NCBI RefSeq assembly: GCF_004571025.1
Contig: NZ_SPQT01000033.1
Span: 1-64,000, forward strand
From: Bradyrhizobium niftali
Lineage (GTDB): Bacteria; Pseudomonadota; Alphaproteobacteria; Rhizobiales; Xanthobacteraceae
Direction: 5' to 3'
Length of the DNA stretch: 64,000 bases
Positions 6,814 to 23,989 of this stretch are shown one piece after another (the first letter of the stretch is position 1; each line of letters opens with the position of its first letter). A program made the position numbers and the translations under genes. Under the pieces are notes generated by a model. The model did no database searches and was not told the DNA's origin. It was given only the letters and a program-made list of their open reading frames with translations.

Positions 6814-8016
6814 TCAATCCGTCATCGCCATGGCGCGCAACGTCTGGCGTTCGCGGGCCGAGAGCTTTTCGGTCTCCGACTTGAGCTGGCCGCAGGCGGC
6901 GAGGATGTCGCGGCCGCGCGGGGTGCGCACCGGCGAGGAATAGCCGGCGTTGAAGATGTATTCGGAGAATTTTTCGATCTGATCCCAGTCCGAGCATTCA
7001 TAGGCGGTGCCGGGCCAGGGATTGAACGGGATCAGGTTGATCTTGGCGTGAATGCCCTTGAGCAGCTTCACCAGCAGCTTCGCATCGTCGAGCGAATCGT
7101 TGACGCCCTTGAGCATCACATATTCGAAGGTGATGCGGCGTGCGTTCGAGGCGCCGGGATAGTCGCGGCAGGCCTGGAGCAGCTCCTTGATGGGATATTT
7201 GCGGTTGAGCGGCACGAGCTCGTTGCGCAGCTCGTCGCGCACCGCGTGCAGCGAGATCGCAAGCATGACGCCGATCTCCTCGCCCGCGCGCACGATGTTC
7301 GGCACCACGCCCGAGGTCGACAGCGTGATGCGGCGGCGGGAGATGCCGATGCCTTCGTTGTCGCCGACGATCAGCAGCGCATCGCGCACGGCGTCGAAAT
7401 TGTAGAGCGGCTCGCCCATGCCCATCATCACGATGTTGGTGACGCGGCGCGTGCCGTCCTCGCGATCGGCCCAGTCATTCAGGCGATCACGCGCAACCAT
7501 GATCTGACCAACGATCTCGCCGGCGGTGAGGTTGCGCACCAGGCGCTGCGTGCCGGTGTGGCAGAACGAGCAATTCAGCGTGCAACCGACCTGCGAGGAG
7601 ACGCAGAGCGTGCCGCGGTCGGTCTCGGGGATGTAGACGCACTCGACTTCATGCGCCTTCTCGACATTGTCACCGCTCGGCAGCCGCAGCAGCCATTTGC
7701 GGGTGCCGTCGTTGGAGATCTGCTCGGCCACGACTTCGGGCCGGTCCACCGTGAAGTGCTGTGCGAGCTCGGCGCGAATGCCCTTCGAGATCGACGTCAT
7801 CTCGTCGAAATTCTGGGCGCCACGGAAATACATCCAGTGCCACAGCTGCTGCACGCGCATCTTGCGCTGCGCAGGTGCGACGCCGATCTCACCGAGCCGG
7901 TCGGCAAGCTCGTTGCGCGACAGGCCGATGAGCGAGGGCCTCGCCGGCGGCACATAGGTTTCGAGCGGAGTCTTCTCCACCAATGTTGCGTTGTGCGGCT
8001 CGGTCGTCGTTTGCAT
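6814..8016 (-). CDS. rlmN: 23S rRNA (A2503-C2)/tRNA (A37-C2) methyltransferase, radical SAM
   Basis: 400 residues. RlmN methylates C2 of A2503 in 23S rRNA and A37 of some tRNAs. The radical SAM cluster motif CTLNCSFC gives C145, C149 and C152. The two catalytic cysteines expected for the ping-pong methyl transfer are present: C138 (TLCVSS) and C375 (DILAACGQL). MGMGEPLYN is also present. All key residues are intact. It is transcribed away from the IalB-family gene across a repeat-containing spacer. Confidence 0.97.
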
Positions 8017-18375: not shown

Positions 18376-19143
18376 ATGGACGCGCGTATCGGGAAGGCGA
18401 CGGAGGTCGGCAGCCGGCCAGCCAACAATCTGCTGCGACGCTTGAGTCCGGCCGACTATGCGCTGCTCGCGCCACACGTCATCGTTAACGATGCCGCGGC
18501 CAACGAGCTGCTCTACAGTCCCGGCGACGATGTCCAGGTCGTGCACTTTCCCTGCGGGCCGTCGCTCGCGACCTTTCTCGTTCCCAACGAAGACGGCCGC
18601 GACGTCGAGACCATCCTGGTCGGCCGCGAAGGCGCGGTCGGCGGCATCGTCAGCGAGGGATTTCTGCCGGCCTACACCCGCATCTGCGTGAAATTCGGCG
18701 GGCCGTTTGCGCGCATCCACGTCGGCAAGCTGGAGGCGGCCAAGCTGCGCTCGCCCTCGCTGCGCAACATCTTCGCCCGCTATGCCGACTGCATGCTGGC
18801 GCAGATCTTCCAGTCGACCGCCTGCAACGCGATCCACTCGATCGAGCAGCGCACGGCGAAATGGATCCTGGCGGCGATGGAGCGCACCGGCGACGAGAGC
18901 AGCGTGCCGCTGACGCATGAGCAGCTCGCGACGCTGCTCGGGGTCGGACGCAGCTATGCGAGCCGCGTGCTCCAATCGTTCAGGGCCGAAGACATCCTCG
19001 ACACGCGGCGCGGCTCGATCCTGGTCCGCAACCGCGACGGCCTGCGCCAGCGCGCCTGCCTCTGCAACGAGGCGGTGAAAACCCATTTCGAGGAAGTGCT
19101 GCGCGGCGTCTACCCGACGGAGGAGGCGAGCAGCACCGGCTAA
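18376..19143 (+). CDS. Crp/Fnr-family transcription regulator
   Basis: 255 residues: cyclic-nucleotide-like beta-roll (about 20-130, with LLYSPGDDVQVVHFPCGP and GREGAVGG), a dimerisation helix, and a C-terminal winged helix (LTHEQLATLLGVGRSYASRVLQSF). No FNR-type cysteine cluster is seen, so sensing of oxygen through a [4Fe-4S] cluster is unlikely. The beta-roll lacks the RSS/TSS-type phosphate pocket of true Crp as far as can be judged, so the ligand is unknown. It lies 50 bases upstream of the Lgt-like operon in the same direction and could regulate it; that is inference from position only. Confidence 0.88.
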   Translation: MDARIGKATEVGSRPANNLLRRLSPADYALLAPHVIVNDAAANELLYSPGDDVQVVHFPCGPSLATFLVPNEDGRDVETILVGREGAVGGIVSEGFLPAYTRICVKFGGPFARIHVGKLEAAKLRSPSLRNIFARYADCMLAQIFQSTACNAIHSIEQRTAKWILAAMERTGDESSVPLTHEQLATLLGVGRSYASRVLQSFRAEDILDTRRGSILVRNRDGLRQRACLCNEAVKTHFEEVLRGVYPTEEASSTG

Positions 19144-19193: not shown

Positions 19194-19949
19194 GTGCGAC
19201 ACCGCACGTCCGCCGTGCTATACCCGCTCCGCATGAGCGGGGCATTCCTTCACACTGTCTTCGATGTTGCGGCGTGGCTGGCGGCGGGGGCGGCGGTCTA
19301 CTGGCTGTCGCGACAGGGCCTGCGGTTTCCGGCGCAATCCTTCGAGCTGCCCTACATCGCCGCGCTGGTGTTCGGCGCCGGCCTTGGCGCCTATCTGTTC
19401 GGGTCCGCCAATCTGTGGCTGTCGGGCGAGGGCGGCCTTGCGCGCTCGGTCGAGGGCGCGCTTGCCGGCGGCATCGTGGCGGTCGAGCTCTACAAATGGA
19501 CCGCCGGCATCGCCTTGCGCACAGGCGCCCGGTTTGCGCTGCCGCTGGCCCTCGGCATCGCGATCGGACGGGTCGGCTGCTATTTTGCGGGCCTCGACGA
19601 TTTCACCTACGGCACGCCGACGGCATTGCCCTGGGGCCATGATTTCGGCGACGGCGTTCTCCGCCATCCCGTGCAGCTCTACGAGAGCGCCGCGATGGGC
19701 GTGTTCGCGCTGCTCTACGTGCTGGCGGTCTTGAACCGGAGCGCGTTCGCGATCACCAATGGTTTCTACCTGGTTCTGCTCTACTATGGAGCGCAGCGCT
19801 TCCTGTGGGAATTCCTCAAGCCCTATGGCACGCTGATCGGCCCCCTCACGCTGTTTCACCTGCTGTCGCTGTCCATCCTGCTCTACGCCGCAATCATGCT
19901 GGCGACGGCGCCCAAAGCGAGACCTGTGCATGAACGCGCCGTTGCGTAA
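19194..19949 (+). CDS. Lgt-like (prolipoprotein diacylglyceryl transferase family) membrane protein
   Basis: 251 residues from the GTG at 19194, preceded by GGGAGG; an ATG at 19233 is in frame but has no ribosome site. About seven hydrophobic segments. The Lgt signature region is recognisable as GRVGCYFAGLDDFTYG (125-140) and RHPVQLYE (157-164). However, the HGG motif carrying the catalytic His of canonical Lgt reads ALAGG (A91 before GG). Lgt moves a diacylglyceryl group from phosphatidylglycerol to lipoprotein Cys; this paralogue may bind the same lipid but do another job. Its end overlaps the radical SAM gene by 20 bases, so they are translationally coupled. Confidence 0.8.
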   Translation: MRHRTSAVLYPLRMSGAFLHTVFDVAAWLAAGAAVYWLSRQGLRFPAQSFELPYIAALVFGAGLGAYLFGSANLWLSGEGGLARSVEGALAGGIVAVELYKWTAGIALRTGARFALPLALGIAIGRVGCYFAGLDDFTYGTPTALPWGHDFGDGVLRHPVQLYESAAMGVFALLYVLAVLNRSAFAITNGFYLVLLYYGAQRFLWEFLKPYGTLIGPLTLFHLLSLSILLYAAIMLATAPKARPVHERAVA

Positions 19950-21375
19950 GTCGCGCCCCTACGTCTTCTGGGGCCAGACCCAATCCCTTTGCGAAATCTG
20001 CCTGAAGCTGGTGCCGACCAAGATCCAGATCCTCGACAACGAGGTCTGGTACGAAAAGCGGTGCAGGGAGCACGGCGTCCAGTCGACGCTCGTGTCCACC
20101 GACGCGGCCTATTGGCGTCTGTGCAAGGACTTCATCAAGCCGGGCGACCGCCCGCTGCAATTCCAGCACCGCACCGAATTCGGCTGCCCCTATGATTGCG
20201 GCCTCTGCCCGGACCACGAGCAGCATTCCTGCCTCGCGCTGATCGAGATCACCGAGCACTGCAATCTCACCTGCCCGGTCTGCTTCGCCGAATCCGCGCC
20301 AACGCGAACCAAATTCACCCCGCTCGCGACGGTCGAGAAGATGCTCGACGCGCTGGTTGCCAGCGAGGGCGAACCCGACCTCGTGCAGATTTCCGGCGGC
20401 GAGCCGACATTGCACCCGGACTTCTTCGAGATCCTGGACGCCGTGCGTGCCCGCCCGATCCGCCATGTCATGATCAACACCAACGGCCTGCGCATCGCCC
20501 GCGAAAAGGATTTCGTGGCGCGGCTCGCCGAGAACAAGCGCGGGCTCGAGGTCTATCTCCAGTTCGATTCGCTGCAGCGCGATGCACTGGTCAATCTGCG
20601 CGGCGCGGACCTGCGCAAGATCCGCCAGCAGGCGCTGGAGAATCTCGAGCATTTCGGCGTGTCGACCACGCTGGTGGCGACCATCAAGCGCGGCGTCAAT
20701 GATGCCGAGATCGGCGACATCGTGCGTCACGCGCTGACATGGAAATGCGTTCGCGGCGTCACGCTCCAGCCGGTGCAGGATGCCGGCCGCAACGAGAATT
20801 TCGACAAGACCACCGATCGCATCATGCTGTCGGAGATTCGCAAGCGCGTCGTCGAGACCGGCGTTTTCGGCGACAAGGACATGATCCCGCTGCCCTGCAA
20901 CCCCGAGAGCATCTCGATCGGCTACGGCCTGCGCAACGGCGAGAAGGTGCTGCCGCTGACGTCGCTGATTCCGCAGGAGCAGCTGGTTGCGGTGATGCCC
21001 AACACCATCAGCCCGGAGAAATATCCGGTGCTGCGGGAAAAATTCGTCGACCTGTTCTCGCTGTCGTCGGGGCCGCTCAACACCTCCGAACGGGTCTGCG
21101 AATTGCTGTGCTGCCTGCCGAGCTTCGAGGTGCCGGAAGGACTTTCTTACGAGAACGTGTTCCGCGTCACCATCGTGCAGTTTCTCGACCGCTTCAATTT
21201 CTGCGTCGGCAACGTCAAACGAAGCTGCATCCATTTCGTGACGGAGCAGGGTGCGATCATTCCGTTCGACACCTACAATCTGTTCTACCGCGACGGAAAG
21301 ATCGACGGCATCCGCGCGGCGCTGGCCGGGCAGACGTATCGGGACGTGAGGCAGGGCGAAGAGGTGCCGCGGTGA
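19930..21375 (+). CDS. Radical SAM enzyme of the tetraether lipid synthase/MJ0619 type
   Basis: 481 residues. N-terminal rubredoxin-like site: C21, C24 and C45 (LCEICLK, KRCREHG). Next CPYDCGLCPDHEQHSC gives C86, C90, C93 and C101 for an auxiliary [4Fe-4S] cluster, then the radical SAM triad CNLTCPVC (C111, C115, C118), QISGGEPTLHP for SAM binding, and later cysteines C323, C390, C394, C395, C425 and C433 that could hold a third cluster. This order matches the archaeal MJ0619/Tes family, which joins lipid tails by C-C bonds; other bacterial members may be methyltransferases or membrane-spanning lipid synthases. It overlaps the Lgt-like gene upstream and a small membrane gene downstream. Family firm, product unknown. 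Confidence 0.85.
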   Translation: MNAPLRKSRPYVFWGQTQSLCEICLKLVPTKIQILDNEVWYEKRCREHGVQSTLVSTDAAYWRLCKDFIKPGDRPLQFQHRTEFGCPYDCGLCPDHEQHSCLALIEITEHCNLTCPVCFAESAPTRTKFTPLATVEKMLDALVASEGEPDLVQISGGEPTLHPDFFEILDAVRARPIRHVMINTNGLRIAREKDFVARLAENKRGLEVYLQFDSLQRDALVNLRGADLRKIRQQALENLEHFGVSTTLVATIKRGVNDAEIGDIVRHALTWKCVRGVTLQPVQDAGRNENFDKTTDRIMLSEIRKRVVETGVFGDKDMIPLPCNPESISIGYGLRNGEKVLPLTSLIPQEQLVAVMPNTISPEKYPVLREKFVDLFSLSSGPLNTSERVCELLCCLPSFEVPEGLSYENVFRVTIVQFLDRFNFCVGNVKRSCIHFVTEQGAIIPFDTYNLFYRDGKIDGIRAALAGQTYRDVRQGEEVPR

Positions 21376-21629
21376 GCGATACCGGTGCGCCTCCTCCGAC
21401 TCCGAAGCCGCCGCTTCAAGCGGACGCGCCTCCGCTAGCGCCGCCACGGCGCGACGGTTGCCTGACCGCTTTCATGGTGGTCGCCGGCGTGGTGCTGCTT
21501 TTCCCCGGCCTGTGCTTCCTGGCATTCGGCGGCCAAGGCGCCCCCTTTGTCCTGATTGGGTTTGTCCTGATCGGAATTGCGATCTTCCTCTTCATCCGCG
21601 CGGCGACCCCACCCAAGCCCCGGCAGTAG
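21372..21629 (+). CDS. Small membrane protein A of the Lgt/Tes-like operon
   Basis: 85 residues, starting with GTG in a GTGA overlap with the radical SAM stop, which supports coupled translation. Residues 1-28 are Pro-rich; then RRDGCLTAFMVVAGVVLLFPG starts the first of two helices (about 31-52 and 56-75), with a short basic tail (TPPKPRQ). It is clearly paralogous to the next gene through GCLTA-x-M-x3-GV and PGLC-x-L. No known function was recognised. The conserved Cys after Gly (GC) near the membrane resembles a lipobox position but no signal cleavage context is present. Confidence 0.72.
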   Translation: MSDTGAPPPTPKPPLQADAPPLAPPRRDGCLTAFMVVAGVVLLFPGLCFLAFGGQGAPFVLIGFVLIGIAIFLFIRAATPPKPRQ

Positions 21630-21641
21630 CGTCGCATCATC

Positions 21642-21917
21642 ATGAGCAACATCGAACCCCCGCCTCCGCTTTCGCTGCCGCCGCCGAACCAGCGCGGCGG
21701 CTGCCTGACCGCCCTGATGACAGGCTTCGGCGTCCTCATGCTGCTGCCGGGCCTCTGCGCGCTCCTGTTTGGCGGAATGTCGGTGTTTGAGGACGGCAGG
21801 ATCGCCTCCGACATCGCGCCACTGGTCTTCCTGGGACTGGTCGTCGGCATCGGAGGCGTCGCCCTGATCTGGGCGGCCATCAAGGGGCGGAACGCCCCCA
21901 CCCATCCCGGAACCTAG
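21642..21917 (+). CDS. Small membrane protein B (paralogue of the preceding gene)
   Basis: 91 residues, 12 bases after protein A. Pro-rich N terminus (EPPPPLSLPPPNQRGG), then GCLTALMTGFGVLMLLPGLC and a second helix (about 62-80, LVFLGLVVGIGGVALIWAA). It shares the pattern of protein A, suggesting a tandem duplication. It is the last gene of the operon; a hairpin with a T-rich tail follows about 105 bases on. Function unknown; an accessory subunit for the membrane-bound lipid enzymes upstream is the simplest guess. Confidence 0.72.
   Translation: MSNIEPPPPLSLPPPNQRGGCLTALMTGFGVLMLLPGLCALLFGGMSVFEDGRIASDIAPLVFLGLVVGIGGVALIWAAIKGRNAPTHPGT

Positions 21918-22162: not shown

Positions 22163-23989
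<1,827 letters not shown>

Follow-up and report, generated by a model that had tools for sequence, protein, structure and literature searches.

In the window, the 64,000-nucleotide stretch of the Bradyrhizobium niftali genome (9.79 Mb) at positions 1 to 64,000 of contig NZ_SPQT01000033.1, a gene for an Lgt-like membrane protein, a gene for a radical S-adenosylmethionine (SAM) protein resembling the archaeal tetraether synthase Tes, which joins lipid tails, and two tandem genes for small membrane proteins follow one another on the + strand. It was found that the Lgt-like gene, the radical SAM gene and genes for small Cys proteins form a module, which occurs in many Bacteroidota, in the genus of the window bacterium and in some actinobacteria. 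The small proteins are its third conserved part and the overlooked key. The reading that I prefer, though tentatively, is a dedicated membrane-protein lipidation module: the Lgt-like enzyme would lipidate a Cys of the small proteins, and the radical SAM enzyme would alter the lipid tails.

A conserved three-part module

The four open reading frames (ORFs) of the window occupy positions 19194-21917, with successive overlaps of 20 and 4 bases and then a 12-base gap. These coordinates agree with the initial annotation, in which the genes at 19194, 19930, 21372 and 21642 overlap or lie at most 12 bases apart.

19194-19949, + strand: Lgt-like membrane protein (P0002), 251 amino acids; Pfam LGT, 66.8 bits
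19930-21375, + strand: Tes-like radical SAM protein (P0001), 481 amino acids; Pfam Radical_SAM and Zn_ribbon_HMPTM
21372-21629, + strand: small membrane protein 1 (P0003), 85 amino acids, with a Pro-rich N-terminus; from the ORF sequence
21513-21515, + strand: motif Cys48 (PGLC) of small protein 1; from the sequence
21642-21917, + strand: small membrane protein 2 (P0004), 91 amino acids, a tandem relative of protein 1; from the ORF sequence
21756-21758, + strand: motif Cys39 (PGLC) of small protein 2; from the sequence

The true start of the Lgt-like gene may be the ATG at 19233 (residue 14) instead of 19194, since matches from the genus mostly start somewhere from residue 7 to residue 14.

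In 96 of 100 loci (19 from Pseudomonadota and 81 from Bacteroidota), the radical SAM gene is preceded on its own strand by the Lgt-like gene. This count leaves aside L016, which is the same place as L044, and L052 and L063 (group B). Read from stop to stop, the two ORFs overlap or are at most 100 bases apart in 79 loci. Three of the four misses (L112, L128, L162) are at or near a contig start, while L156 is a true miss. The genus survey covered 146 genomes: both genes occur in 61, the Lgt-like gene alone in one (G777), and the radical SAM gene alone in none; G696 and G774, in which the radical SAM protein is represented only by a 37-39% relative, are not counted. Of the co-occurrence of the four genes that the initial annotation had proposed to check, that of the two large genes is evident from both surveys. 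The radical SAM orthologue is split in two of the 61 genomes, in two frames in G729 and across two contigs in G702. At the G729 locus (L172), the two frames overlap and the Lgt-like gene and several small proteins are still present, which may reflect decay or a sequencing error. The 37-39% relative occurs in three genomes of the genus in all (G696, G774 and G745), and G745 also has the orthologue.

The distances among the Lgt-like proteins correlate with those among the radical SAM proteins (r 0.91 for 98 loci, L065, L066 and L016 included). For the 75 Bacteroidota loci, r was 0.87, and the best of 999 permutations gave 0.18. Shared host ancestry contributes to this correlation. When genome contigs were scanned for further phyla, the matches listed were filled by Bacteroidota. 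On plasmids of Mycobacterium avium and M. branderi, the Lgt-like gene comes first, then the genes of two small proteins and last the radical SAM gene, and these small proteins end with G-x-C-TGLNP and a short tail. In Nonomuraea, the Lgt-like and radical SAM genes come after that of a Pro-rich membrane protein whose end is similar. The CPYDCGLCPDH motif described below is missing from the radical SAM proteins of M. avium and Nonomuraea. A module from another family (L015 in G224) lies on a 4.2-kb contig, and its radical SAM protein is 92% identical to that of the window; as the source genome has 4% contamination, this may be a transfer or a stray contig.

The small proteins, mostly shorter than 90 amino acids, were picked up later and not by neighbour clustering. 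That clustering (ORFs of at least 90 amino acids in the 100 loci) gave no family in more than 30 loci besides the Lgt-like and radical SAM pair, antisense clusters aside. A hydropathy rule identified a small membrane ORF immediately downstream of the radical SAM gene in 87 of 97 loci, as against 35 of 478 control ORFs, which are other ORFs of at least 250 amino acids in the Bacteroidota loci. The 97 loci are a set of 99, to which L015 does not belong, minus L129 and L144 (contig ends). With a Gly/Ser/Ala-x-Cys motif required within 250 bases, the numbers become 89/97 (72/79 in Bacteroidota) versus 9/466. All 40 small proteins with a single Cys have Gly, Ser or Ala at position -2 (background 27%), and the residue at -1 of the 89 motif sites is mostly Ile, Thr, Leu or Val. 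A lipobox follows the pattern [LVI][ASTVI][GAS]C. Both small proteins of the window read PGLC and fail it. No Pfam family scored above cut-off in nine small proteins (two from the window and seven others), and no further copy turned up in the window's genome at E 0.01.

The net charge before the Cys helix is higher than that after it at 79 of the 89 sites, lower at 3 and equal at 7, and the Cys end is accordingly expected on the periplasmic side. The motif lies near the C-terminal end in the Bacteroidota proteins and in the first helix in the Pseudomonadota proteins, with an identical predicted side. The motif Cys is thus predicted from sequence to lie at the periplasmic end of the helix, on the same side as the active site of Lgt, which is on the outer face (PMC4728403). 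Two to four tandem copies of the small protein occur in 24 of the 97 loci. In five loci compared (the window, L162, L138, L048 and L078), the copies are only 25-54% alike but keep the motif, as would be expected of substrates. The initial annotation took the small proteins for helpers, a claim that is not supported: the tandem copies and the strict Cys motif rather suggest that the Lgt-like enzyme uses them as substrates. Pro-rich N-termini before the membrane part are common to small proteins of the genus, Hymenobacter and Mycobacterium (window 21372-21917; L041-L043, L162, L164, L174).

The Lgt-like and radical SAM proteins

The Lgt-like protein passes the Pfam LGT cut-off, but scores 30.5 bits with the NCBIfam Lgt equivalog TIGR00544, below the cut-off of 118.9. 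A separate canonical Lgt (240 bits) is encoded elsewhere in the genome. The AlphaFold2 model of the Lgt-like protein (predicted local distance difference test score, pLDDT, 87) matches E. coli Lgt 5azb with Z 14.2 over 222 aligned residues; the next match has Z 6.4. Residues were compared in 20 aligned rows of the Lgt-like set.

19251-19253, + strand: His20 at the position of E. coli Lgt Tyr26; His in 20/20 rows and invariant in 44 rows
19569-19580, + strand: Arg126-x-Gly-Cys129, with Arg143 kept and Asn146 replaced by Cys; 20/20 rows
19797-19799, + strand: Arg202, equivalent to E. coli Lgt Arg239; 20/20 rows

Of the six residues required in E. coli Lgt (Y26, H103, R143, N146, G154, R239), three are kept and three are changed in every row. 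Arg143, Gly154 and Arg239 are kept throughout, as is Tyr235, while Tyr26 is His, Asn146 is Cys and His103 of the HGGL site is never His. Glu243 is kept in 17 rows and is Asp in 3, and Arg246 is Lys in 18 of 20. The term "His-less" used in the initial annotation is correct for His103 but overlooks the new invariant His at the Tyr26 position. Its mention of phosphatidylglycerol binding agrees with the donor site, which is retained in all 20 rows. In Lgt, Arg143 and Arg239 sit at the phosphatidylglycerol, and the HGGL motif of His103 has been proposed to bind the lipobox peptide (PMC4728403, PMC13251419). Since the donor residues are kept and the HGGL His is lost, the Lgt-like enzyme seems to have preserved the donor side and altered the acceptor side.

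Among solved structures, sequence comparison gave a single strong relative of the radical SAM protein, the tetraether synthase 7tol (E 7.6e-61). The AlphaFold2 model (47 sequences, mean pLDDT 78) matches 7tol with Z 37.9 and a root-mean-square deviation of 3.0 over 407 aligned residues (residues 11-456, 30% identity). The next match after 7tol and 7tom has Z 20.0, and the next-best folds include the peptide enzymes SuiB and SkfB as well as MoaA. The sites below were read from a 96-row alignment, in which L016 stands beside L044 (the same place) and from which L065, L066 and the loci lacking a full Lgt-like ORF were left out.

19990-20073, + strand: rubredoxin-like site C21, C24, C45, H48; all four ligands in 96/96 rows
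20185-20217, + strand: N-terminal auxiliary cluster C86, C90, C93, H96 (CPYDCGLCPDH); all four in 96/96 rows
20260-20283, + strand: radical SAM triad C111, C115, C118 (CNLTCPVC); 96/96 rows
20896-20898, + strand: Cys323 of the C-terminal region; invariant, 96/96 rows
21109-21114, + strand: Cys394-Cys395 (CCLP), without a Tes counterpart; invariant, 96/96 rows
21226-21228, + strand: Cys433, equivalent to Tes Cys456; 95/96 rows, one gap
21268-21270, + strand: Asp447 at the Tes Cys470 position; Glu in 79, Asp in 16 and Arg in 1 of 96 rows

The spacing of the rubredoxin-like site (C21-X2-C24-X20-C45-X2-H48) equals that of Tes, C9X2C12X20C33X2H36 (PMC9433317). The C21/C24/C45 site and the CNLTCPVC triad named in the initial annotation are present in all rows, and H48 is the fourth rubredoxin-like ligand. 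Its claim of six C-terminal Cys in the Tes order stands in part. Six Cys (323, 390, 394, 395, 425 and 433) are indeed present from residue 323 onward, and Cys433 corresponds to Tes Cys456, but Cys394 and Cys395 are new and Tes Cys470 is replaced by Asp or Glu. Cys323 may or may not correspond to Tes C337, because C337 falls in an alignment gap. The pLDDT of the model is below 50 around Cys394-Cys395.

For the C-terminal features of Tes, namely Met439, Tyr459 (constant in archaeal Tes) and Cys470, numbered here by count in the 96-row alignment, the window protein has Val, Phe and Asp and fails the comparison. The position of Met439 is Met in 73 of the 96 rows, and that of Tyr459 is Phe or Ile in the rows of the clade. 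I infer which Tes Cys residues, including Cys470, bind the C-terminal cluster; only Met439 is named for this cluster in the available part of the source (PMC9433317). Since Met439 and Tyr459 were dispensable in Tes assays (PMC9433317), the loss of both says little.

The family models agree with a position outside Tes. The NCBIfam Tes/GDGT-MAS equivalog NF045702 gave 261.6 bits (cut-off 450), and two other members of the clade scored 285.2 and 269.3 bits, again under the cut-off. The top-scoring named model was the TrsS equivalog NF045646, with 300.3 bits against a cut-off of 490. In a 41-row tree, a clade of Lgt-linked proteins from Pseudomonadota and Bacteroidota forms one side of a branch (support 98/96), and Tes, TrsS-like proteins, haloarchaeal plasmid proteins and group B are on the opposite side; the tree has long branches and an uneven make-up, Tes is a single row, and Mss sequences are not included. 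Two actinobacterial Lgt-linked proteins join the clade (99/93), with a very short inner branch and a long branch of their own. Neither an Lgt-like gene nor a motif protein was found in the fetched stretches of the 16 loci of the other types (12 TrsS-like, two of group B and two haloarchaeal); among the 12, L057 and L059 pass the TrsS model and the other ten are placed by the tree.

In summary, the radical SAM protein combines the Tes fold and three of the four Tes metal sites with a changed C-terminal cluster region. The comparison by structure and clustering proposed in the initial annotation yielded the Tes fold, but also a separate clade and a score under 450 bits. The link to Tes holds for the fold and probably for the chemistry, but not as family membership. 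Identity with Tes is rejected on the basis of the curated cut-off, the tree position and the C-terminal residues, and identity with TrsS on the basis of the cut-off and the gene context. As for an anti-phage role, PADLOC returned weak viperin matches of the radical SAM core and nothing more.

TrsS-like radical SAM proteins occur in several genomes of the same order (L053-L059, L080-L084), with no Lgt-like gene in the fetched stretches. On haloarchaeal and Mycolicibacterium plasmids (L064, L067, L063), a related radical SAM gene immediately precedes a methyltransferase gene.

Proposed function and alternatives

In the proposed mechanism, the Lgt-like enzyme would take a diacylglyceryl group from phosphatidylglycerol on the outer face of the inner membrane. 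The acceptor would be the Cys of the Gly/Ser/Ala-x-Cys motif at the periplasmic helix end of the small proteins. No ordinary lipobox would be used, and the new His/Cys pair would replace the usual His103. Less surely, the Tes-like enzyme would then act on the inner face by 5'-deoxyadenosyl radical chemistry on saturated tails. These might be the tails of the Cys-bound lipid or, beforehand, those of the donor lipid, and they would be joined or otherwise changed. Gene set, order and co-inheritance, folds, kept and changed residues, motif, predicted side and tandem copies are observations; the two reactions and their sequence are what I infer from them.

Lipidation is favoured because the gene pair, the motif protein, the side of the Cys, the donor residues and the genome G777 agree. 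In G777, a gene for a 247-amino-acid fusion of small proteins starts 11 bases after the Lgt-like gene, and neither a genome-wide search at E 1e-40 nor the 10 kb around the Lgt-like gene yielded a radical SAM orthologue. This single case is what a working pair of Lgt-like enzyme and small protein would look like. The initial annotation had two enzymes acting on membrane lipids. This is a fair reading, because the Tes-like architecture, the co-inherited pair and the kept phosphatidylglycerol site go together, but the identity with Tes that it implied is not supported.

Several points weigh against the lipidation module. Its product is not known. The downstream motif protein is lacking in 8 of the 97 loci (L079, L135, L137, L145, L153, L156, L158, L163), although in L137 two motif proteins are encoded between the two large genes; L153 encodes a small membrane protein that is devoid of the motif, L158 looks broken, and L156 also lacks the Lgt-like gene. 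The hydropathy rule favoured candidates with a small residue near the Cys, and many of the control ORFs may not be true genes. The Bacteroidota set consists of the best 80 of at least 584 confirmed loci, ranked by likeness to one Bacteroidota protein. Finally, Lgt proteins with Cys in place of Asn146 occur in other settings, and one such paralogue is presumed to have low activity (PMC13251419).

At L079, a 272-amino-acid ORF lies between the Lgt-like and radical SAM genes, where other loci have none. Its start reads like what I take to be a lipoprotein signal with a Cys.

Could the module instead make a free membrane lipid? A bacterial membrane-spanning lipid synthase complex, in which the radical SAM enzyme couples phospholipid tails, the Lgt-like protein binds or positions phosphatidylglycerol, and the small proteins serve as scaffold or anchor, is unlikely but deserves serious weight. 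The Tes fold with three of four metal sites and the kept donor site of Lgt are consistent with it, and it has been proposed that tetraether-type lipids are made by bacterial relatives of Tes (PMC8941075). However, the clade stands apart from Tes with a different C-terminal cluster region, tandem diverging copies with a strict Cys are unlike scaffold subunits, and G777 retains the Lgt-like gene and small proteins without a radical SAM gene. The fixed three-part module with its Lgt variant and Cys proteins points to another product than tetraether-type lipids.

A specific form of the lipidation module is a rather unlikely speculation: a small protein might be diacylglycerylated at its outer-face Cys by the His26/Cys146 Lgt variant, and a tail of the bound lipid might then be welded by the Tes-like enzyme to a lipid of the opposite leaflet, giving a membrane-spanning, protein-anchored lipid in ordinary aerobic bacteria.

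Somewhat less probable again is a peptide-modifying system, in which the radical SAM enzyme would alter side chains of the small proteins (for example by a link of Cys or a backbone carbon) and the Lgt-like enzyme would add a lipid to give a modified lipopeptide. The tandem small genes adjoin the radical SAM gene, and SuiB and SkfB are among the fold matches after Tes, together with MoaA. Yet Tes is far ahead (Z 37.9 versus 20.0), and the motif Cys is at the predicted periplasmic helix end, away from the cytoplasmic radical SAM enzyme.

G777, along with G729 and its radical SAM gene in two frames, is also consistent with a working pair of Lgt-like enzyme and small proteins, which the radical SAM gene would join optionally for a different lipid step. 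I consider this improbable: one clean case stands against 61 genomes with both genes, and two unrelated losses could be decay. A pathway shared with the (seleno)protein TrsS is very improbable, as TrsS is the best NCBIfam model but its 300 bits fall below the cut-off of 490.

If the lipidation module is true, a route of protein lipidation without a lipobox is added, and the Lgt paralogues with Tyr26His and Asn146Cys gain a substrate. Caution is advised against counting the Tes relatives of the Lgt-linked clade as lipid-biomarker genes. With three genes, the question of function is directly testable.

Gene neighbourhood and known systems

Upstream of the four-gene set lies one regulatory gene.

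18376-19143: Crp-type regulator; from Pfam

Downstream, positions 22163-23989 hold what I take to be a TypA-like GTPase gene. A second radical SAM gene in the window (6814-8016, - strand) is presumably that of an rRNA/tRNA methylase RlmN. Among the 100 loci, a presumed translation GTPase is a neighbour in 29, and in Bacteroidota, genes that I take to be for a dihydrouridine-synthase-like protein, an FtsX/LolC-like permease and an RbfA-like protein recur in 23, 20 and 19 loci. All of these were taken as local gene order. Lipoprotein release by the presumed FtsX/LolC-like permease would fit, but local gene order explains its presence equally.

Among the open-access papers searched, the matches listed included none linking an Lgt paralogue with a Tes-like enzyme, and nothing relevant on known lipids of the module carriers. 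The module combines known kinds of chemistry, and no description of the combination was found in the literature searched.

Archaeal Tes/GDGT-MAS (MJ0619; 7tol, 7tom) shares the fold, the rubredoxin-like CX2CX20CX2H site, the cluster motif CX3CX2CX2H and the SAM triad with the window protein, which differs by its own clade, its C-terminal region, and the Lgt-like and small-protein partners of that clade. Bacterial Mss, a membrane-spanning lipid synthase, is described as having the Tes architecture in models (PMC13274423). TrsS (NF045646) is the best-scoring named model, but its cut-off is missed and the 12 TrsS-like loci are without Lgt-like and motif proteins. E. coli Lgt, a prolipoprotein diacylglyceryl transferase (5azb), has the same fold and donor residues as the Lgt-like protein, in which Tyr26, His103 and Asn146 are changed. 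The second Lgt of M. smegmatis, MSMEG_5408, has the same Tyr26His and Asn146Cys changes, a comparison by description alone; the available part of that description makes no mention of a radical SAM gene (PMC13251419).

A parallel for the small proteins is the sorting signal MYXO-CTERM, which likewise has an invariant Cys beside a helix, a predicted Lgt-like lipidation and no defined lipobox (PMC11980579). There, the Cys precedes the helix of exported, protease-cleaved proteins (PMC11980579), whereas the small proteins of the module have it at the outer helix end. MYXO-CTERM uses a protease, and no protease gene was seen as a fixed part of the module. By analogy, the predicted handling of MYXO-CTERM would provide a precedent for lipidation of a Cys without a lipobox (PMC11980579).

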